Shown one piece after another: positions 1 to 11,736 of a DNA stretch of 64,000 bases (position 1 is its first letter; each line of letters begins with the position of its first letter). This DNA is from Conexibacter sp. S30A1 (GTDB lineage: Bacteria; Actinomycetota; Thermoleophilia; Solirubrobacterales; Solirubrobacteraceae). The translations under genes and the position numbers were made by a program. The stretch covers positions 2,728,001 through 2,792,000 of the forward strand of contig NZ_CP097127.1 of the NCBI RefSeq assembly GCF_023330665.1, read 5' to 3'. The notes beneath the pieces were generated by a model. That model was not told the DNA's origin. It saw only the letters and a program-made list of their open reading frames with translations, and made no database searches.

Positions 1-501
1 ATCTTGTGGATGTACGCCGTGGCCGTCACGCCGGTGGGGGTCGCGTTGATTCTCGCGATCTCGACGAACGCCTCGCCGAGATCCTCGTCCTTGACGATCG
101 AGAGCACCCCAATCTTCTTGACGAGCCGAAGGTCGTATGCATCGACCGGCGTGAGGCGGTAGACGAGGTGCTTGAGGTCGCGGTGCGTCGCCGAGTAGCG
201 CAGCCGAAACAGGGGAGCGAGTGACGCGATCGCCTGCCGGCGAGTTGGGGTCTCCATGTTCTGCGGCTCGTCCATGATCACGATCGGCCGGCAAGCACGG
301 AGGAACTCGATCGGCCGATAACCGTTCATCGCGTCCGTGGGACGATTGATGATGTTCGCGTCGTTCGCGAACGCGTCGATGTTGATCACCATGATCTGCA
401 AGTGCGACGCGGTCGCGAACTGCCGGACTCTCGTCAGCGCCTTGCTGTCATAGACGTAGTGATCGAACTGGAGTCCGTCGTAGATCTCCTTGATGTGGTC
501 T
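1..501 (-). pseudogene. res: Type III restriction Res subunit, downstream fragment cut by an IS and by the window edge
   Basis: Minus-strand reading from 494 downwards is open to the window edge and carries the helicase Walker B region of Type III Res subunits: IVIMDEPQN, followed by an FRLRYSATHR motif III-like stretch. It is the direct continuation of the fragment at 2074-2567. Joining base 2074 to base 495 (dropping the IS and one copy of the 6-bp target duplication) keeps the frame exactly and rebuilds ...LLKDHIKEIYDGLQF. Res subunits are ATP-dependent translocases with a C-terminal PD-(D/E)XK nuclease; the nuclease would lie outside the window. As it stands the gene cannot give full-length Res. 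The identification is firm; only the extent of the 3' part is unseen. Confidence 0.88.
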
Positions 502-2073
502 CTCGGGTTTCGCACTTTTGGGCCTGTAGCGGCATAGCGGCGTAGCAGGTGGTGGTGGACGGGGCCGTGGCGGGCTGGTGTGGCCTGTTGGCGCGGTGTC
601 GGGGAAGGAGCATCGGCGGCTTGCGCGAAAGCGGTTGCTGTCAACATAACCCGTCCGTCGCGGCCAAGGGGAGGCACGCTGCGCGGCTTCTCTTGGAGGC
701 TGCCGCCGATGCTCTGCGTCCCATCTTCGCTGAACGAGCTGCTTGTCCTGTTTGAGTCGTGTTTCACCCGTCCCACGTTTGAGACGTTCCGGGGGGTGTT
801 GGTCGGTCAGGTCTCGCAGACCTCTCTGCGGTGCGTGACCGGGATGCTGACAGGCTCAAGGCTGTCGGGGGTGTGGCATCACGCGCGTTGCCACCGGTTC
901 TTCGCCAATGCCCGCTGGTCCGTGGACGAGCTCGGGTTACGGCTCGCCTGCCTGATCGTTGAGCGGTTCACAGAACCGGGTGCGAGCGTGCTGGTCGCGG
1001 TCGACGACACGCTCCTGAAACGCAGGGGACGCCGGATCCACGGCACCTTCTGGCATCACGACGCGACCGCCAACAGCCGCTCAGGCTCGGTCGCGTGGGG
1101 GAACAACTGGATCGTGGCCGGGATCTGTGTCAAGCTGCCGTTCCTGCAGCGCACCGTATGTTTGCCGGTCCTGTTCCGGCTCTGGCAGCCGCGGCGCGAA
1201 CAGTTCGTCAAGCAGCACAAGCCCGATCCTGAGCGGCCCGGGAAGGTCAAGCTGGCCAGGGCGATGGTCTGCCTGCTCGCCAAACGGCTGCCGGATCGCC
1301 AGATCAACGTGGTCGGTGACAGCGCCTACATCAGCCAGGCGTGGCGTGCTGCACCCAAGCGGGTGACGATCACATCGAGGCTGCGTAGCAACGCGGTGAT
1401 CTACGCCCCTGCGCCGCCGCGCACCGGCAAACGCGGCCGGCCACGCAAATGGGGCAAACAGCTTGAAAGCCTTCAACAGATCGCAGCCGACCCCGCCACC
1501 GAATGGGTAAAGACGACCGTCAGGCGCTACAGCAAAACCGAGACGCTCGAGCTGGCTGAGATCAACTGCCTGTGGGAGCCGCTCGGCGCCGAAACCCCGG
1601 TCCGTGTGATCCTCGTCAAAGACGACACCAAGCCGTGCGGCTACCAGATCGCGCTGATCACCACCGACCTTCACGCCACCGCCGCGCAGATCGTCGAACG
1701 CTACGCAGACCGCTGGCCGATCGAAGTCGCCTTCCAGGACGGCAAAGAACTGTTCGGCGTCGGTGATGCCCGCAACCGGACCGAGAAAGCCGTGCAACGG
1801 ACCGTCCCATTCCAGTTCTTGGCGATGGACCTCACGATCATCTGGTACGCGCTCTACGGACATCACCCCGACATCGTCACAGAGCATCGCGCCCGCGCCC
1901 CCTGGTATGTCTCCAAGACCACCCCATCATTCCAGGACATGCTCGCCAAGCTACGACGAGTGATCATCGCCACCCAATTTCAACCCGAACAGGCCCGAAC
2001 CCCCACAACCCAGGAAATCAACCAAGTCCAGCAAGCATGGGCAGCCGCCGGCCTATGAACTGCGAAACCCGAG
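502..2073 (+). mobile_element. IS element inserted in the res gene, 1572 bp
   Basis: Perfect 13-bp terminal inverted repeats CTCGGGTTTCGCA (502-514) and TGCGAAACCCGAG (2061-2073) bound the element. A 6-bp direct repeat TGGTCT flanks it (496-501 and 2074-2079), read as the target-site duplication. One transposase gene fills most of the element. The perfect repeats and duplication argue for a fairly recent insertion. The family is not certain: the transposase is a DDE protein, but the 6-bp duplication differs from the 4-bp CTAG used by the IS701-family element at 57206. Confidence 0.93.
709..2058 (+). CDS. DDE transposase of the IS in res
   Basis: About 449 residues. The N-terminal half contains [17 protein letters not shown], a DDE-superfamily first catalytic Asp context, then a basic stretch [10 protein letters not shown]. 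The C-terminal third has [19 protein letters not shown], the usual last catalytic Glu context of IS4/IS701-like DDE transposases. The ATG at 709 is chosen because GGAGGC lies 9 nt upstream and the conserved part starts there; the frame is open back to 580 but that extension overlaps the IS end region. It is the only gene of the element and looks intact, so the IS may still be mobile. Confidence 0.85.
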
Positions 2074-2567
2074 TGGTCTTTGAGAAGTCGAAAATTCGAC
2101 AGGACACCCTCTCGTATCGCCACGCTCGGCACGACGATCACGAACTTCGCAAAGCCATAGCGCTGGTGGAGTTCAGCGATCGTCCGGAGGTATACGTAGG
2201 TCTTCCCTGTCCCTGTCTCCATCTCGACGCTGAAATCCGCTGGTACCTCAGTTGGTTCGACGGCCACCCGGAGATCGAGAGGGATGCGGGGGATCAGCTC
2301 GCCGGAATCGTCGACAGCGTCCCCATCCTGGATCCGTCGCAGATTCGCCTCGAGCGTCGATGCTCCGAGCGACAGGACGTTTCCGAAGACGATCTCGTGA
2401 AAGCCTTCGAGCGCCAGTTCATCGTGCAGCAGTCCGGCGTCCCCGCTGAGGGGAACCGCCCCGCCGGAATCACCCGCGGCCTGCTGACCCGCGAACAGCT
2501 CGACAACGCTATCGATCGCGTCCCGCTGGTACTGCTGGTTGGCATCGAACTTCAGCTCGACAGCCAT
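2074..2567 (-). pseudogene. res: Type III restriction Res subunit, N-terminal fragment
   Basis: N-terminal 165 codons of a Type III Res helicase-nuclease. Residues 1-20 have the Q-motif-like [17 protein letters not shown], and METGTGKT at about residues 116-123 is the Walker A motif, followed by [15 protein letters not shown] (motif Ia). The IS interrupts codon 165; the read-through frame ends in IS sequence at 1980. The ATG at 2567 overlaps the mod stop codon (TGATG), the usual translational coupling of mod and res. Without the 501-1 portion the fragment lacks motif II and the nuclease domain, so restriction is probably off while methylation persists. Confidence 0.9.
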
Positions 2568-4387
2568 CAGACCGTCTTCATCACGATGCCAAGATTCTTC
2601 GCGTTCGTTGCGGCGTTTGCCTTGACCGCGTCGACGCCGGCGAATCCGTCCTCCATGAAGACCACGACCTTCGCCCCAATCTCCAGGACCCCGTTCACAA
2701 GGTCGCTCGTGACGGCCGCCGACAGAACCACGGCTACGCTGCCGGCAACGACTACCTCGGAACCGGCGATCTCACGGCGACTCCACGGAACGTCAAGCGG
2801 CACCCCTTCCTTGAGAAGGACCTCGGCTGCGACTGCATCCCAATCTGGCTCGCCCGCCAGCGTCGACTCGCTGAGGTCGAAGAGGGTCTCAGACACCGCG
2901 GACTGGGCAAAATTGCTTTCGGCGAGGGAGAAGTCGCGAAGGCCGGACTTCGCCTCGACGGCCTGCATCGCGGCGCGGATTCGTGTTCGAGTAATGTCGG
3001 ACACGTGCACGTAGTCGTTGTATCCGGTCGGCTCGGGCAGCTGCACCAGTAGGAAGCGTCGGTTGCCGCCGTCCTCAGCGTTCTGCTGCAACACGGCATC
3101 GGCCGCCGAGCCAGACCCCGCGAAGAAATCTAGGACGAGATCGCCCGCGCTGGCGTCGGTAGCAAGCGCGAGCATTCGTCGGATCAGCTGCGTTGGCTTG
3201 GGCGTGTCGAAGACACTGTCCGAGGAGCCGAACTTCACACGGCTGAGCAACTGTTTCTTTGCATCCTGGGTGTGGCCTACCTCCTCATACGGCCAAAAAC
3301 TCTCAGGGACTCGCCCTTGCTGAACCTCACTGAGGAAGCGCTTGTAGGCTGGCCGACTCTGACCGTCCTTGCCAAACCATACCCGACCGTCTGCGAGCAG
3401 TTCCTCGTACCGCGGCTGGGTGTATCGCCACGCACCGCCAATCGGCGGCATGAAGCGATTCCCGGCGGGCGTGACAAGCTCATACGTCTGGGACGGGGTT
3501 GCGTGGCCTGCCGGCGCTGTGAAGTCGCTCGACTTCCACGGGCCGCGCGGATCGTTGTCCGGATTCTTGTACGCCTGGTCCTGCTCGGACGTCCGCGGGA
3601 GGAGGTTCGGTCGCCAAAGCAAGGCATTCCGGGCAAAGACGAGTAGATAGTCGTGGACAACGGCGAACTGCTGGCGATTGTTCATTGGCGAGTAGACCTT
3701 TTGCCACACAAGCTGCGCCACGAAGTTCTCGGGTCCAAAGACCTCGTCCATCAGCCCCCTTAGGTGCGACATCTCGTTGTCGTCGATCGAGACGAAGATG
3801 ACGCCGTCCTGGGTCAGTAGGTTCCTTGCCAGGACGAGCCGGGGGTACATCATCGACAGCCAACGGCTGTGTCGGCGGCCGCTCGTATCCGCTGCCGCCG
3901 ACGTTCGGTTGCCGTCGGCGTCGACTTGCCCCGTGAATTCGAGGTACGCGCGCAGGGTGTCCGAAAAATCGTCTGGGTAGATGAAGTCGTTGCTCCCGGT
4001 GTTGTAGGGCGGATCGATGTAGATCAGCTTGACCCGATCGTTGTAGGCCTTCTGGAGAAGCTTCAGTACCTCGAGGTTGTCGCCTTCGATAAACACGTTC
4101 TGCGCACTGTCGAACCCGATCGAAGCGTCCCGATTTGGCGCGAGCGTTCCTCGCGAGGGCGTCAACAGCGACCGGACGGCCTGCGCTTTCCCGGCCCACA
4201 TCAGTCCGAAGCGTTCGCGCGTATCGGCCGTGTGAGCGATATCGACGTCGAGGAGCGCCGCGAGGCGATCGGCGTCGAGCACTCCGTCGGCAAGGAGCCC
4301 CGGGAACAGGTCCTCAAGACGTGCGCGGTTTTCGGCCGCGAGGTCCGCGGTCTCAAGCTCGATCTTCTCCGGCTCCTCTCCGATCAT
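2567..4387 (-). CDS. mod: Type III DNA methyltransferase (Mod), N6-adenine, beta class
   Basis: About 606 residues. Methylates adenine within the asymmetric site that the Mod-Res complex recognises, using S-adenosylmethionine. [14 protein letters not shown] is catalytic motif IV (DPPY) and [16 protein letters not shown] is the AdoMet-binding motif I (FxGxG). Motif IV precedes motif I, the beta-class order typical of Mod proteins, with the variable recognition region between them. The ATG at 4387 is chosen because GGGAGAGGGG lies upstream and the open frame further back is antisense to the helicase gene. The stop overlaps the res start. Divergent from the helicase-nuclease gene with 81 bp between starts, which must hold both promoters. 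The gene appears intact. Confidence 0.93.
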
Positions 4388-4468
4388 CGTGTAGTCCAAC
4401 CCCTCTCCCAAAACATTCTTGTAATCATCTGGTCGTTGCGTCGAGTCGATTCCTGACCTAGCGTTCCA

Positions 4469-7231
4469 ATGGTGCCAGAGGAGACCGATCCGATTCCAGC
4501 AGCACCGACGCTCGAAGGGGATGCGGCGGCTGCCGTCGCCCACCGGGGCAGCCACATCCAGATCATCGCTGCCGCCGGCGCCGGCAAGACCGAGGTCGTC
4601 TCTCAGCGTGTCGCGGCGCTCCTCGCCTCGGGCGAGGATCCGAGCGGAATCGTCGCCTTCACGTTCACAGACAAGGCGGCCGCAGAACTCAAAGAGCGAA
4701 TCCGGCAGCGGACCGTGGCGGCAAGCGGCGCCGAGGCGGCAGACCAGCTCGGAAAGCTCTTCGTAGGGACGATCCACGCCTACTGCTTCCGGCTTCTGCA
4801 GAGCTTCGTCCCCAGATACGAGAGCTACACCCCGCTCGACGTCAACCAGCTCGTCAACCTCCTCTACCGGGAGGCGAACCGGCTGAAGCTCAAGGAGTTC
4901 GACAAGGATCGCAAGCTGTTTCGAGCGGTTGAGCTGTTCTCCAAGAGCGTCGACGTGATCGAGAACGAGCTCATCGACCCGGAAACCCTCCCGCGCGACC
5001 ACTTCCAAGCAACCGTCAAGCAGTACTACGCGATGCTCGACGGCTACCAGTTCATGTCGTTCGGAACCCAGATCGTGCGCGCCGTCGACGCGCTCCAAGA
5101 CCCGGGAGTGCACGCCAGGGTGACGGAAACACTCCGTCACTTGATCGTCGATGAGTACCAGGACGTCAACCCCGCCCAAGAGCGTCTCATCGAGCTGCTC
5201 GCCAAGCCAATCGGCGGTGCCGACCTCGTTGTGGTCGGCGACGACGACCAGGCCGTCTATCAGTGGCGCGGGTCCAACGTCCAGAACATCGTCACGTTCA
5301 AGGACCGCTACCCCAACGTCATCCCGTTTCGGCTACTCGTCAACCGTCGGTCCCGGCCGCCGATCGTCGCGCTCGCCAACGCATTCGCGCAGTCGATCAC
5401 AGGGCGACTCGACAAAGCGATGGGTCCCCACCGCGAAACCGACGGCCCTGCGCTGTCGATCGCTGCAGGATTCGAGGACGAGGAACTCGAAGCCGACGAG
5501 GTCGCCGTGACGATCGAGCGGCTCCACGCCCGCGGCATCCCGTACCGGGACATCGCGATCCTCGTTCGCGGCCGAACGGCGTATCCAAAGCTCCTCGAGG
5601 CTCTCGAGTTCGCGAAAGTCCCCGTCCAGCCCGGCGGTCGAACGGGACTCTTCGAGCAGTCCGAGGCCGCCGTCCTCGGAGCGACATATGCGTGGCTCGC
5701 CGACATCGAGTGGGCTCCCGGACGCTTCATCAAGCGGGAGAAGATCGTATTGCCAGATCTCGTCCGCGATTACGAGCTCGCATTCCAGATCGCGCCACCA
5801 GCCTCGGCCGCCCTCAGGCAGCACCTCATCGACTGGAAGCCCCAGACCCGTGAGACGAACTTCAACGTCAGTCTCGTCGGAGACTTCTACACATTGCTCG
5901 GTCTCCTCGGACTCTCAGCCTGGGACACGACCGCCAGCGAAGTCCGCAACCGGCTCGGGACGATCGCCCGGTTCACCACGGTGCTCGCCGACTACGAGAC
6001 CGTCACTCGCCGGTCTCGGAAGGATCCGAACAACCCTGGCGAGCAGGTCGGCGGCGCCCCGGGCGACGAGTGGTTCTACCGCAACCTCGCGCTCCTCCTC
6101 GTCAACTACGCCAACGGCAACTACGACGACTTCGACGGCGAGGAGGACCTCCTCACCGATGCTGTAGCGCTCGGGACTGTTCACGGCGCCAAGGGCCTCG
6201 AGTGGCCCGTCGTCTTCCTCCCATCACTTACCGAGTCGCGGTTCCCGTCGCGGCGCACCGGGCGGCTCGAGAACTGGTTGATCCCGCGAGACCGCTTTGA
6301 CGCAGCGAGGTACGAGGGATCCGACGCCGACGAGCGACGCCTCTTCTACGTAGCGCTGACCCGGGCACGCGACTGGGTTTCACTCTCGTCTCACCAACGC
6401 GTCAACAAGAACAACGTCGCCCCTTCCCCCTATCTGAACGAATGCATCGCGCATGCGAGCGCGGACACCGGTCACCCAACCGGAGCGCTCCCGACCTCCG
6501 TCTCGATCCCCGACCTCGCGGTCACCTACAGCCAGCTCGCGGCGTACGCCGAATGCCCGCAGAGCTACCTCCTCCGGAACGAGCTCGGCTTCATCCCGCC
6601 GATCAAACAGGAACTCGGCTACGGGAACGCGATTCACCACCTCATGCGAGTTATTGCGGAGCGGACCCAGGCCGCTGGCCGAACGCCCACCGATGCCGAG
6701 GTTGACGAACTCCTCACGACGGACTTCTTCCTGCCGTTCGCCAACAAGCCTGCGCACAAGGAGATGCGGGAGAAGGCGCAACGACTCGTCGGCACCTATC
6801 TGCGCGACCACCAGGACGACCTCCTTCGAACGTGGGCCACCGAACTCCCCTTCGAGCTCTACCTACCTGGCGTCGTCATCAGCGGCCGCGCCGACGTGAT
6901 CTACGACGAGCACGACGGCGTCCCGACGAACCTCGCGATCGTCGACTACAAGACCTCAACGCACGGCGACGTCGAGCCCCTCCAGCTCCAGGTCTATGCG
7001 GACGCAGGTCGGCGCGAGGGGCTTACGGTCGGGGCGGCGTTCGTCCACGACATGCAGACCGCCACGCGGCACCCGATCGCAGTTGACGCGGCCGCCGTCG
7101 CCGACGCGGAGAGCCAAGTCGTGACGACGTCCGCCGCCCTCATCCGCCGCGATTTCACACCTAAGCCAGAGCTCACAAAATGCCGCGCTTGCGATGTCAG
7201 AACGATCTGCTCCGCGGCACGTCTTACCTGA
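4469..7231 (+). CDS. UvrD/PcrA-like superfamily 1 helicase with C-terminal Fe-S PD-(D/E)XK nuclease
   Basis: 920 residues. Helicase motifs in order: AAAGAGKT (Walker A, about 34-41), DEYQD (motif II, about 228), GDDDQAVYQWRGS (motif III, about 255-268) and TVHGAKGLEWPVVF (motif V, about 571). The C-terminus has a RecB-family nuclease: SGRADVIYD and IVDYKTSTHG supply the D...DxK residues. Cysteines AECPQS (about 697) and CRACDVRTIC (905-914) follow the C...C-x2-C-x5-C pattern of the AddB/Cas4 4Fe-4S nuclease clamp. It would unwind and cut DNA, as in AddAB-like repair, but sits alone next to a restriction system in an island, so a defence role is plausible (inference). No strong Shine-Dalgarno is seen before the ATG. 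Confidence 0.92.
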   Translation: MVPEETDPIPAAPTLEGDAAAAVAHRGSHIQIIAAAGAGKTEVVSQRVAALLASGEDPSGIVAFTFTDKAAAELKERIRQRTVAASGAEAADQLGKLFVGTIHAYCFRLLQSFVPRYESYTPLDVNQLVNLLYREANRLKLKEFDKDRKLFRAVELFSKSVDVIENELIDPETLPRDHFQATVKQYYAMLDGYQFMSFGTQIVRAVDALQDPGVHARVTETLRHLIVDEYQDVNPAQERLIELLAKPIGGADLVVVGDDDQAVYQWRGSNVQNIVTFKDRYPNVIPFRLLVNRRSRPPIVALANAFAQSITGRLDKAMGPHRETDGPALSIAAGFEDEELEADEVAVTIERLHARGIPYRDIAILVRGRTAYPKLLEALEFAKVPVQPGGRTGLFEQSEAAVLGATYAWLADIEWAPGRFIKREKIVLPDLVRDYELAFQIAPPASAALRQHLIDWKPQTRETNFNVSLVGDFYTLLGLLGLSAWDTTASEVRNRLGTIARFTTVLADYETVTRRSRKDPNNPGEQVGGAPGDEWFYRNLALLLVNYANGNYDDFDGEEDLLTDAVALGTVHGAKGLEWPVVFLPSLTESRFPSRRTGRLENWLIPRDRFDAARYEGSDADERRLFYVALTRARDWVSLSSHQRVNKNNVAPSPYLNECIAHASADTGHPTGALPTSVSIPDLAVTYSQLAAYAECPQSYLLRNELGFIPPIKQELGYGNAIHHLMRVIAERTQAAGRTPTDAEVDELLTTDFFLPFANKPAHKEMREKAQRLVGTYLRDHQDDLLRTWATELPFELYLPGVVISGRADVIYDEHDGVPTNLAIVDYKTSTHGDVEPLQLQVYADAGRREGLTVGAAFVHDMQTATRHPIAVDAAAVADAESQVVTTSAALIRRDFTPKPELTKCRACDVRTICSAARLT

Positions 7232-7753: not shown

Positions 7754-7761
7754 TAGAAGAA

Positions 7762-7816
7762 GCCTACTTACGTAGGCGGGTCCGTCCGAGCCAAGCGATA
7801 GCCTACGTACGTAGGC
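7762..7816. promoter_or_regulatory. Pair of 16-bp palindromic operators upstream of the AlpA-like gene
   Basis: GCCTACTTACGTAGGC (7762-7777) and the perfect palindrome GCCTACGTACGTAGGC (7801-7816) differ by one base. Their centres are 39 bp apart, close to four helical turns, suggesting side-by-side dimers on one DNA face. The proximal site is 8 bp upstream of the AlpA-like ATG on the minus strand; the distal site lies 71 bp before the excisionase ATG on the plus strand. Confidence 0.7.
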
Positions 7817-7887
7817 AAGATCAATAGCTGGCCCCGGCGGTGGTGGAACACCCCGGGGCGCGGCCGGTACCCCAAGGAGGTCCCGAC

Positions 7888-8087
7888 ATGACGCAGGCTA
7901 CGCCGTTCTCCCTCGGACAGCTCGAGGGCAAGGCAACCATCACGTTGAGCAGGCCGCTCAGGTGCTCGGAGTTGGCCGCACCGCCGCGTACGACGCGGCC
8001 CGTCGCGGCGAGCTGCCGACTCGCCGACTCGGCCGTCGGCTGCTGGTCCCGGTTCCCGCACACCTCAGCTTCCTGGGAGCGGTCTGA
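7888..8087 (+). pseudogene. Excisionase-family DNA-binding protein with one-base frameshift
   Basis: ATG at 7888 has AAGGAGG 8 nt upstream and begins MTQATPFSLGQLEGKATIT. The frame then loses its family pattern. Dropping back one base near 7944 gives EQAAQVLGVGRTAAYDAARR followed by GELPTRRLGRRLLVPV, a textbook MerR/excisionase helix-turn-helix, ending at TGA 8085-8087, which overlaps the integrase ATG. A single missing G in ACG(G)TTGAG explains the break. Either the gene is inactivated or there is a sequencing error. Confidence 0.8.
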
Positions 8088-8683
8088 TGCAGGGGCACAT
8101 CCACAAGCGCGTCCGGATGGATAAGTCGGGCAAGGAGCGCACGCTCTGGTATGTGGTGCTCGACGAGGGCGTCGACCACGACGGTCGGCGTCGGCAGAAG
8201 TGGCATGGCAGCTTCCGCACCAAACGAGACGCAGAGACCGCTCGCGCCAAGCTCGTCGACCAGCTGCACTCCGGCAGCTATATCTCCCCGAGCCGCACGA
8301 GCCTCTCAGAATGGGCGATCGCCGGCTGGCTCCCTGTGATGGCCACGCGGATCAAGCCCAGCACCCTCCACTCCTATCGCCGGAACTTGGAGATGCATGT
8401 CCTTCCGGTACTCGGCGGGAAGCCGCTGCAGCAGATCACGCCGGTGATGCTGAACACGCTCTACGCCAACCTCGCCTCCCCCACGTCAGAGCGGGATGCG
8501 CTGAGCGCCAAGACGATCAGCTACATCCACACGATCGTCCACAAGGCACTGTCGGACGCGGTCGACTCTGAACTTCTTCAACGCAACCCGGCGGAGCGCG
8601 CCAAGCCGCCCCGGCCGAACCGGCGGGTGACGACCGGGATCCAGTCGTGGGTGTCAAGGATCACGAGATCTCCCCAGGTGTGA
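8087..8683 (+). pseudogene. int: Tyrosine-type integrase, N-terminal half only
   Basis: 198 residues. The first 70 resemble the arm-type DNA-binding domain (GSFRTKRDAETARAKLVDQL), then a SAM-like core-binding domain (SYRRNLEMHVLPVLG; SAKTISYIHTIVHKALSDAV). Tyrosine integrases run to about 370-400 residues with an R...HxxR...Y catalytic domain, which is absent. Family similarity stops at about NPAERAKPPRPNRR, after which the frame enters unrelated sequence. The ATG overlaps the excisionase stop, the usual xis-int arrangement. Non-functional as an integrase. Confidence 0.85.
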
Positions 8684-8920
8684 TCATGGTTTTTCCCCAC
8701 CTGTGATCGCGGGTCGGAGTGCGTTGCTGGCGTCGCTGTGGGCGCGCATGCGGTAGCTGTCGCCGTTGATCGCGCCCGACGGCCCATAGGCAACACCAGT
8801 CGTCTCACTCGCCGCACAATGCCCCGCAATCAACACCACCGCGGCCACGCAGGCGAGCACGCCGCCGAGCGGGCCGGCTAACAGCTCGCTCTTCGCGGGG
8901 CCGGCCGCAAGTGAGACCAT
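8684..8920 (-). CDS. Possible small membrane or secreted protein
   Basis: 78 residues with one hydrophobic segment (PLGGVLACVAAVVLIAGHCA, about residues 16-35) and a short polar tail. Start ATG at 8918-8920. Codon third positions are GC-rich as in real genes here, but there is no recognisable family and no clear ribosome-binding site. Could be noise next to the truncated integrase. Confidence 0.3.
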   Translation of the reverse strand: MVSLAAGPAKSELLAGPLGGVLACVAAVVLIAGHCAASETTGVAYGPSGAINGDSYRMRAHSDASNALRPAITGGEKP

Positions 8921-9040
8921 CGACACCTCGCTATCGCTCGCCCTCGTCGAAAAGGCCGTCAGACGAGCGGACTTCAAACAACGGAACCCTCCGACTGCCG
9001 GCGTGTGCCGGTAGGCTTCCAGGCGCACAGGGCGTGAAAC

Positions 9041-9304
9041 GTGAAGCCTCTGTACAGATACCTGCGATCGTGGCGGCCGGCCAACCCAAACGTCGGGGAC
9101 TACACGCTCGCGGGAGCGGCACTCATGGGAACCGCTGGTACGGTCACCGGCCTGATTGTCGGCCTCACCGTCTACGCACCGACCGCGTGGTTTGCAGCCG
9201 CCGAACTCGGCTTACCAGCCGCGATCGTCGGCGCCGTCGTCGGGTCCCTGGTCGGCGCGACCTTGGCAGCACGCAAAGCGATCCGGCGGCGCACACGCCG
9301 GTAG
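9041..9304 (+). CDS. Small two-helix membrane protein, unknown function
   Basis: 87 residues from GTG. Two predicted membrane spans: YTLAGAALMGTAGTVTGLIV (about 21-40) and LPAAIVGAVVGSLVGATLA (about 58-76), with basic ends (RYLRSWR; KAIRRRTRR) that suggest both termini are cytoplasmic. Gly/Ala-rich helices resemble glycine-zipper membrane proteins. No family recognised. It lies between the broken integrase and the tRNA fragment, so it is probably island cargo. Confidence 0.5.
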   Translation: MKPLYRYLRSWRPANPNVGDYTLAGAALMGTAGTVTGLIVGLTVYAPTAWFAAAELGLPAAIVGAVVGSLVGATLAARKAIRRRTRR

Positions 9305-9502
9305 GCGCCGCAACAAATGATCCGGCAGCACGACCGCCCAGCGCCCGTCCACGCCTGGCACGCAACCGCCACCGTGCGGTCCGACCACGCCGACTGCCCT
9401 CGACGACAATTTGGTACTCGCGCGCGGTACTCGCTGACCGATATCGCGCCAGCGAGACCCGATTCATAAACTCAAAAGCATCGCATTAGCTGGGCTTCTT
9501 CG

Positions 9503-9546
9503 AGTGGCCGTGCAGGAATCGAACCTGCAACCTTGGGATTAGGAGC
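9503..9546 (-). other. 3' fragment of tRNA-Arg(CCU): attachment-site remnant
   Basis: The minus strand reads an anticodon loop CTCCTAA (anticodon CCU at 9541-9543), the 3' anticodon strand ATCCC, an intact T-arm (TGCAGGTTCGATTCCTGCA) and the acceptor strand CGGCCAC. The 5' half is missing: the bases before the loop (TCGCG) cannot pair with ATCCC. Homology from the anticodon loop to the 3' end is what tyrosine-integrase elements duplicate at tRNA attachment sites. This fits an att scar beside the broken integrase. Confidence 0.75.
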
Positions 9547-9766
9547 GCGACCGTGGCATCTACGGGGATGAGCGTCCACTCAGCGAGCGACCGCCGATCT
9601 TGGTGCGTGGTCGGCCAGCCACGGGCCGCATCGCAGAGCAAGCCCGACCTTGCGCGTCAACAAACACTTCGGTTTGGTAGCCAACCGTGGTAGCCAAATG
9701 GCGTCACAAACGGTGCTCGCGCTCGCAAACGCCAAGAAACCGTCCCGTTACCAGGTGTTTCGGGAA

Positions 9767-9839
9767 TGGAGCCAAGCGGGATCGAACCGCTGACCTCCTG
9801 CGTGCAAAGCAGGCGCTCTCCCAGCTGAGCTATGGCCCC
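9767..9839 (-). tRNA. tRNA-Ala(UGC)
   Basis: Complete cloverleaf on the minus strand: acceptor GGGGCCA/TGGCTCC, D-arm AGCTCAGCTGGGAGAGC, anticodon loop TTTGCAC (anticodon UGC), T-arm AGCGGTTCGATCCCGCT, discriminator A. 73 nt; CCA is not encoded. Confidence 0.95.
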
Positions 9840-9905
9840 TTCCAGAGCGAGTTTAGAGACAGATGGAGTCGCCGGTGGTTCTACGGTCGGCTCGTTCAGT
9901 GGGCA

Positions 9906-10850
9906 TCAGCCGTTGAAGTCGAAGTCCTTGGGAGGTCGCTGCTCAAACCAGAGACGGTCGTGCTCAGGAGTGTCCTGAAGGAAGTCCGGCGTCTCTTCTA
10001 GGACGTCCTCCTGCGTGGTGTCGGCGTCTTCGTGCTGGACCCCAACCTCGAACTCAGTCGTCTCCTGCGTGTCGTCAACAGACGGTGGCAGGGTGGTCGC
10101 GCCACGGTCTGCCGGCGCCCCATCCGCCAGATCGTCTGGGACACGGGACCCTGCCGGGGAAGGCTCGCTTGAGCCCGCCCAACCGTCTCCAGAGGTGTCA
10201 GAGCCCATCTCCGCGGACGGATCCGCCGCGAAGGTGGGGCGTTTGGGTGGATGCTCAAATTGCAATTGCGGCGGCATGCCCCCTGCCGGCGGTGTTGACT
10301 CTTGGCTGGGGTAAGCCCCCTCGCTGAGATCTTCCGACCCACCGTGCTGATCGAATAGACGGCCGACGCCTTCCACTTGGTCTGAGTAGTGGAGGGGCTC
10401 GGCTTCGGGGCCGTGATCTCCGTCCGGACGGCGCTCTGCTCCATGTCGACCAAGGTTGAGGAAACGTCGTCGCGGCCGCTCATCGCTAGGCGGCCGCGTT
10501 ACTCGGTCATCTGAACGCTCGGGCATCCATCCGCTCTGCGCGTCCGGGAACTCTCCGATTCCCGCCACGGCATCGTGATGATGTTCGTGCAGATGCGGTG
10601 CGGTGCTGTCGTGGTAGCCGTGTTCTTGGAGCTCTTCGAGGTCCGTGAGGTGGTCCTCCTGGTGAACAGCGGGGTCGAAGAACTCGCTCCGCGCCTCTCG
10701 AGACCCGACGAAATACGCTTGGGACAACGGCGGCTCACGTCGTACGGGACCGAGCGCTTCGCGCTCCAGTCGTTCGATTTCGGCGGGATCACCTCCGCGA
10801 GCGCGCTTGAGGTCGAGGTGCTCGCGGATCGCGTCGTCCAGCAGACCCAT
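9906..10850 (-). CDS. Long disordered acidic protein with conserved ends
   Basis: 314 residues. N-terminus MGLLDDAIREHLDLKRARGG and an ERLEREALGPVRR segment form a short helical block. The middle 200 residues are low-complexity, rich in Pro, Glu, Asp, Ser and His, and predicted disordered. The C-terminus ETPDFLQDTPEHDRLWFEQ with PPKDFDFNG looks conserved. From memory this architecture is recurrent in Solirubrobacterales-like genomes, but no function is known. It lies alone between two tRNA-Ala genes. The start at 10850 keeps the conserved N-terminus. Confidence 0.8.
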   Translation of the reverse strand: MGLLDDAIREHLDLKRARGGDPAEIERLEREALGPVRREPPLSQAYFVGSREARSEFFDPAVHQEDHLTDLEELQEHGYHDSTAPHLHEHHHDAVAGIGEFPDAQSGWMPERSDDRVTRPPSDERPRRRFLNLGRHGAERRPDGDHGPEAEPLHYSDQVEGVGRLFDQHGGSEDLSEGAYPSQESTPPAGGMPPQLQFEHPPKRPTFAADPSAEMGSDTSGDGWAGSSEPSPAGSRVPDDLADGAPADRGATTLPPSVDDTQETTEFEVGVQHEDADTTQEDVLEETPDFLQDTPEHDRLWFEQRPPKDFDFNG

Positions 10851-11066
10851 GCAAGTAAGGGTACCGAGTCAGGCGCGTCGCGACTGCAAAGCTGCCTTCG
10901 TGCGCGATCGCGTGCGAACAGCTGACTGTCTCTGTCGGTCCGCGGACCCGCGGAGACAGACAAAACCCCGTGCATGACTTGCGCATGCACTTGGTCGACC
11001 CAGCCTGGACAACGGTGCTAGCACGCGCTCGGTGGCTGGCCGCACCGCTATGCTGGGGCTTAGCGC

Positions 11067-11139
11067 GGGGCTATAGCTCAGATGGGAGAGCGCCTGGATC
11101 GCACCCAGGAGGTCGCCGGTTCGATTCCGGCTAGCTCCA
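11067..11139 (+). tRNA. tRNA-Ala(CGC)
   Basis: Complete cloverleaf: acceptor GGGGCTA/TAGCTCC, D-arm AGCTCAGATGGGAGAGC, anticodon stem CCTGG/CCAGG with loop ATCGCAC (anticodon CGC), T-arm GCCGGTTCGATTCCGGC, discriminator A. 73 nt; CCA is not encoded. Confidence 0.92.
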
Positions 11140-11736
11140 CTCCTCAGGTCTTCGCGTCCGCCTTTGCGGTATGCAAAGGTTGGGGCCAAAAGGAGTCTGG
11201 ACGGCTGGCGGGACTGTCCGGTGGGGCGTGTCGTGGTGGTGTCGCGCTGTTCGTCCGGTTTGTTGGCTGTTGAAAACGTTTGTGCTTCGGACCTCGCGGA
11301 TGACGCTGGTGGTGGTGGCGAAGGGCGCGTTTTGGATCCGTCACGCCAAGCGGCCACCCGATTCCGCCAGTCCTCACCGGCCACGGAGCCCAAACCCGTG
11401 AACGCCTAGATACGCGAGCGGGCCAGCTTGGTCCCGCACGGCGGTCGCGACGGCGTCGTCACGCGCTCAATGGGGCTCGTTGCGAGGCGGCCGTGGCGCC
11501 GTCGCCATACGTGTCGCCGGGGGAAGTCCATTGCGCGGGTGGCATCGTCTACGATGGTGCGGCGGAGGCCCGCCTGCGCTGCTGTGCTGGCGCCGCGCCG
11601 CGCCAGGTTAGCCGCAGTTGACCCGCAGCTTCTATGGAGACCTCACGCTGGCCACCGTCTCGGAGGTAGTTTGGCTGTAGGGGGCTCAGGGTGGGGGAAC
11701 GGCAGCCGGTGTGCCGCACTAGACTCGCTCGGTGCC
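11140..11736. other. Gap without a convincing gene
   Basis: About 600 bp between tRNA-Ala(CGC) and the ATPase. Several open frames cross it, including a 103-codon upstream extension of the ATPase frame, but none shows a domain or consistent codon bias. No structured RNA was recognised. Confidence 0.5.

Follow-up and report, generated by a model that had tools for sequence, protein, structure and literature searches.

The helicase-nuclease fusion encoded next to a type III DNA methyltransferase gene in the window (the whole 64,000-nucleotide stretch of the Conexibacter sp. S30A1 genome analysed here) belongs to a real, recurrent and already published association with type III restriction-modification (R-M) genes, of which this genome carries a Mod-plus, Res-broken example. 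Judging from gene neighbourhoods, the fusion is repeatedly encoded beside type III Mod(-Res) or other defence genes, and its partners have changed over evolution. We favour, with a probability of about 0.5, a role as accessory effector in R-M and in further DNA-targeting defence systems, in which the fusion would degrade DNA starting at the ends that its partner produces. What the original prediction had regarded as a possibly unnamed system is thus a documented association of the fusion with type III Mod/Res: no name for the combination was found, but the association has been in print since 2017, as the available text of PMC5704561 indicates.

Table 1. Features of the window and its surroundings, and genes of related loci used for comparison (window positions unless a locus is named).
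Feature	Location	Strand	Size	Match or content
Gene row left of the window	L017:9545-14299			HerA/DUF87, 683 aa; protein of no assigned family, 471 aa; D12 methyltransferase, 428 aa, PD-Lambda-5_B-like
res remainder	1..501, on leftward past the window to about G000:C1:2726242	-		PADLOC REase_III 2e-51
IS701-family element inside res	502..2073	+		NCBIfam transpos_IS701_3 6e-88
IS701-family transposase	580-2058	+		
res 5' part	2080..2567	-	codons 1 to about 163	carries Walker A; PADLOC REase_III PDLC03647 7e-38
Type III DNA methyltransferase Mod, intact	2567..4387	-	606 aa	
Divergent mod/fusion intergenic region, presumed promoter region	4388..4468		81 bp	
UvrD-type SF1 helicase + PD-(D/E)XK nuclease fusion	4469..7231	+	920 aa	
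Helicase part of the fusion	about aa 19-643			
Nuclease part of the fusion, C-terminal	aa 685-914, nt 6521-7210			
Integrative-element remnant, excisionase-like HTH frame	7944-8087	+		sequence
Integrative-element remnant, tyrosine integrase N-terminal half	8087-8683	+		Pfam Phage_int_SAM_3, Arm-DNA-bind_4
tRNA-Ala genes	9767-9839; 11067-11140			
Second UvrD-helicase/Cas4-like nuclease	L074:2483-5629 (G000:C1 about 1.931-1.935 Mb)		1048 aa	
Mod genes compared	L010:8072-9901; L013:8086-9888			
Three-gene accessory operon	L009:1204-5149; L010:12750-16710; L011:12735-16692; L013:12738-16710; L027:9914-13841; L069:about 7760-11598			
908-aa + 520-aa operon with different Mod/Res class	L012:5518-9803; L015:17631-22033			

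The fusion matches the Pfam families UvrD-helicase (PF00580, 1e-51), UvrD_C (PF13361, 6e-32) and PDDEXK_1 (PF12705, 2e-24). Across an alignment of 15 fusion homologues, helicase motifs I, II, III, V and VI are kept, nuclease residues D809, D826, K828, Q839 and Y843 are conserved, and the Fe-S cysteines of the AddB/Cas4 kind (C696, C905, C908 and C914) are present in all 15 sequences. These matches and residues bear out the predicted fusion of a UvrD-like helicase to an AddB/Cas4-type Fe-S nuclease, and they identify the protein, at the level of sequence, as a UvrD-Cas4-type helicase-nuclease with an intact SF1 motor and a RecB/Cas4-family Fe-S nuclease. The divergent gap of 81 bp separating it from an intact type III mod gene was likewise confirmed, by the coordinates and by PADLOC and Pfam matches; no sigma70-like site was found within this gap.

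Mod itself matches PADLOC MTase_III (PDLC03634, 9e-169) and Pfam N6_N4_Mtase (4e-32), and the order of its motifs (DPPY, then FFAGS) is that of the beta class. The ATG of res (position 2567, minus strand) overlaps the Mod stop codon, and the res reading frame is split by an IS701-family element (Table 1) that ends in 13-bp inverted repeats, ctcgggtttcgca, and is flanked by the 6-bp direct repeat TGGTCT at 496-501 and 2074-2079, the target duplication. Both pieces of res can be aligned to the intact Res of locus L013 (Nocardioides cavernae), the 5' piece to residues 1-158 (63.6% identity) and the remainder (L017:14266-16503), which has motif II and the nuclease part without Walker A, to residues 156-905 (64.6% identity). 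The element occurs in about 17 copies in the 3.46-Mb genome, 9 of them identical and about 8 at 99-100%, a copy number and identity that indicate a recent transposition burst. Given these near-identical copies across the genome, the insertion in res looks recent as well, and since it parts Walker A from the rest of Res, type III cleavage, and with it restriction, has probably been lost in the window strain. Neither Mod nor the fusion gene showed any sign of decay in its sequence, and both probably persist in this genome without type III cleavage. The description of the interval as a type III R-M system therefore holds for Mod, which is intact, and not for Res, which lies outside the interval originally delimited and is broken.

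The window locus probably sits on a decayed mobile element, as suggested by the excisionase/integrase remnant to the right of the fusion and by a closely similar integrase start that also flanks the related system at L027. Two tRNA-Ala genes lie further to the right of the integrase remnant, and the gene row to the left of the window is convergent with the broken res.

Orthologues of the fusion were defined by at least 50% identity, which gave 10 intact ones besides the window copy. They derive from a fusion-seeded genome scan, which returned eight loci including two remnants (L014 and L016), and from genomes drawn at random, 396 from the phylum and 385 from another class; the window genome was searched in pieces. 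A type III Mod gene adjoins 7 of the 10 orthologues, with three Mod classes represented, as the proposed co-occurrence with mod had anticipated, and a recognised defence gene adjoins 9 (7 type III, 1 GmrSD, 1 Tiamat). Random expectation for type III adjacency is about 0.5%, a rough estimate that takes about 20 kb of 4 Mb and grants every genome one such locus. The count of seven carries a seed bias, five of these orthologues stemming from the fusion-seeded scan; among the four from the random draws, type III Mod was found beside two and Tiamat beside one. The pairing of the fusion with type III Mod thus appears to be real rather than random, which supports a functional link of the fusion to R-M.

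The divergent arrangement of Mod-Res and fusion is common to the window, L009, L010, L013 and L027, with Mod-Res intact in the last four, and Res was found at every other type III locus that carries the fusion. At L012 the fusion is partnered with another Mod/Res class (PDLC03645; PADLOC), to which L015 was assigned because its Mod is 62% identical to that of L012, whereas the partners at L011 are GmrSD and a helicase-MTES_1575 protein. The draw of 396 genomes added three orthologues, L027, L028, where the fusion adjoins a PDLC03632-class Mod and a ResIII protein, and L029, where it directly follows Tiamat TmtA. Besides the centre genome, the draw of 385 genomes added one orthologue, L071, near which no R-M or other recognised defence gene was found. 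All three of the more distant homologues on plasmids, from Athalassotoga, Haloferax and Priestia (26-31% identity), have a DNA methyltransferase gene next to them or one gene away: a type III partner (PDLC03646/03654) in Athalassotoga, a DNA methyltransferase neighbour in Haloferax, and Dcm with an MspI-type restriction endonuclease in Priestia. A Dcm/Vsr context was seen in one distant fusion homologue, and no R-M gene was found near the homologues at L030, L032 and L033 (31-33% identity, another family). These three loci and L071, all without a nearby R-M gene, weaken the case for an accessory role.

With Res as the query, relatives at 56% identity or more turned up in 2 of the 396 phylum genomes, each of which also has the fusion, a number too small for statistics; relatives at 35-47% identity lie at loci that have no fusion nearby, some of these loci being short contigs. 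Searches of viral contigs yielded no relative of Res and a single match to the fusion, which is weak and partial (25% identity, 2e-6). The absence of type III genes beside the fusion at L011, L029 and L071, together with the clustering of defence genes, would be compatible with an independent defence gene that merely shares an island with R-M genes. We consider this explanation improbable, as type III adjacency in 7 of 10 orthologues and a DNA methyltransferase gene or its operon beside all three plasmid homologues exceed what island clustering would give.

Could the fusion instead serve DNA repair? In the window genome, RecB and RecD score above curated cut-offs (RecBCD), and an AddAB-like pair is encoded in addition; the statement that the fusion lacks an AddA or AddB partner is therefore correct for the locus and does not extend to the genome. 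A second UvrD-helicase/Cas4-like nuclease is encoded away from the R-M genes of the window (Table 1). Ordinary AddAB/RecB repair is unlikely as the main role of the fusion because separate RecBCD and AddAB-like genes exist, because the fusion scores 113 bits with the NCBIfam addA profile (addA_Gpos) against a cut-off of 708 and has no match to the addB profile, and because it is rare in the phylum and associated with mobile elements. A more specialised variant would have a RecB/AdnB-like fusion handle host breaks caused by leaky restriction and so lower autoimmunity. The helicase domain has PcrA/UvrD as its nearest sequence relatives, and a repair-like role is partly suggested in the available text of PMC5704561, both in keeping with this variant. 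We nevertheless regard it as improbable, given that RecBCD and the AddAB-like pair are already present and that the fusion is sporadic, occurring at 50% identity or more in 4 of 396 phylum genomes and there inside mobile defence loci. The sequences themselves are compatible both with post-cleavage degradation and with repair of self-inflicted breaks.

A comparison of L010 and L013 bears on whether the fusion depends on a particular modification. Between these loci the fusion is about 94%, Res 93% and the accessory genes 91-93% identical, whereas Mod is 22-47% identical between the catalytic motifs and 87-100% at its ends. The target-recognition region of Mod has been replaced here amid flanks that are about 90% or more identical, which amounts to a recent change of specificity, and the target-recognition block between the motifs is hypervariable among relatives. 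The fusion appears INDEPENDENCE from sequence specificity, the target motif having evidently changed between L010 and L013 with the fusion unchanged, and because the middle of Mod differs while the fusion is near-identical, the fusion does not seem to be tied to one methylated motif. In a tree of the fusions, moreover, the L011 and L012/L015 lineages nest among Mod-A-partnered members, so that partners must have been exchanged; the partner range comprises three type III Mod classes, GmrSD, Tiamat and Dcm/MspI. A fusion that reads one methylated motif is disfavoured by the hypervariability of Mod and by this partner switching, and the earlier suggestion that the nuclease uses the Mod mark does not fit a variable target-recognition region, a near-identical fusion and changing partners.

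For the accessory role that we favour, the partner restriction enzyme would cut DNA, and the fusion would load on the resulting ends, translocate with UvrD-like 3'-5' polarity and degrade the cut invading DNA much like RecB/AdnB-type nucleases; Mod would block the initial cut, and host DNA would be spared. This reading is weakened by the window locus itself, which retains no functional partner restriction enzyme, although the IS burst looks recent. The same break affects the idea of a composite of fusion, mod and res, which gains from the non-random pairing and loses here the Res that it needs. An alternative is that the fusion binds Mod, or unmethylated sites bound by Mod, and unwinds and degrades unmodified DNA beside or instead of Res. 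The divergent placement of the fusion at about 80-125 bp from mod in the ModA loci and the intact state of Mod and fusion in the window despite the broken Res are consistent with such an effector, and Bad, a different Fe-S helicase-nuclease adjoining a type III Mod gene, has been suggested to form part of a new restriction enzyme (PMC7430649). We find this alternative doubtful: the partners GmrSD, Tiamat and Dcm/MspI have nothing in common beyond DNA targeting, which makes a specific contact with Mod unlikely, all other type III loci seen keep Res, and an IS insertion as recent as this one cannot show that Res is dispensable. Taken together, swapped Mod specificity with a near-identical fusion, unrelated partners, and one genome in which Res has just been broken are natural experiments that make the roles considered for UvrD-Cas4 fusions (post-cleavage degradation, alternative effector, repair) directly testable.

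An unannotated operon of three genes, encoding proteins of about 363, 522 and 434 aa, lies beside the fusion or Mod-Res in four type III relatives (L009, L010, L013 and L027) and in the GmrSD relative (L011); the window genome lacks it, as searched with the 522-aa protein. Pfam identifies the 434-aa protein as an SF1 ATPase, through general AAA/helicase models only, and neither Pfam nor PADLOC gave a match for the products of the other two genes, of 363 and 522 aa. Six homologues of the 363-aa protein share D169, E187-x-K189, Q209-x3-Y213 and cysteines 39, 305, 309 and 315, a pattern that, on motifs only, is Cas4-like; profile comparison with the nuclease domain of the fusion was not significant, and a Foldseek search with its AlphaFold model, a poor one (pLDDT 45), found nothing. 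The model of the 522-aa protein is also poor (pLDDT 40). At L012 and L015 we found a 520-aa SF1 ATPase homologous to the 434-aa one (hhalign probability 99.4) and a 908-aa protein with similar Cas4-like motifs (GDAK, CxxC..C), apparently a remodelled version of the accessory module. In genome G252 (L069), neither the fusion nor any R-M gene adjoins the three operon genes (37-47% identity), and the operon can therefore stand alone. We tentatively raise the possibility, which we hold at less than even odds, of an Actinomycetota six-gene restriction machine made up of Mod, Res, the UvrD-Cas4 fusion and the 363/522/434-aa operon, with the 908-aa and 520-aa pair as a remodelled version accompanying a different Mod/Res class. 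If this were true, the window copy would represent a reduced relic that has lacked or lost the operon and whose Res is broken by the IS element.

Among known systems, Gabija was rejected: the GajB profile (PDLC00114, PADLOC) matches the helicase domain of the fusion at 3e-55, the similarity is confined to the helicase, no GajA adjoins (the neighbours are Mod and the xis/int remnant), and the window fusion, unlike GajB, has a fused PD-(D/E)XK nuclease. AddAB, AdnAB and RecBCD share with it an SF1 helicase, a RecB-family nuclease and, in the case of AddB, the Fe-S cysteines; the window fusion differs from AddAB and AdnAB in being a single chain, next to Mod and an integrase remnant, instead of two subunits encoded side by side. 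Type III systems of the m4C kind carry a third gene, for an SF2 ATPase, 5' of mod (PMC8259958) and thus share with the window locus an additional, conserved gene for a motor protein next to mod, but their ATPase is without a nuclease motif. Geobacillus Bad is also an Fe-S nuclease-helicase fusion adjoining a type III Mod gene; it is DNA2-like, moves 5'-3' and has its nuclease ahead of the motor (PMC7430649), whereas the window fusion is UvrD-type with a C-terminal nuclease. The available text of Hudaiberdiev et al. 2017 (PMC5704561) treats UvrD-Cas4 fusions as one monophyletic branch within pfam12705, names type III Mod and Res as their commonest neighbourhood and Dcm/Vsr as a second context, and proposes an ancillary role; the literature searched since then yielded neither a functional test of these fusions nor a name for the system. 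The broken Res sets the window locus apart from the fusions described in that available text, which mentions neither GmrSD or Tiamat as partners nor the three-gene operon. In domain order, families, Fe-S cysteines and type III Mod-Res neighbourhood, however, the window protein resembles these fusions, and we infer that it falls in the same clade as the UvrD-Cas4 branch that they form.
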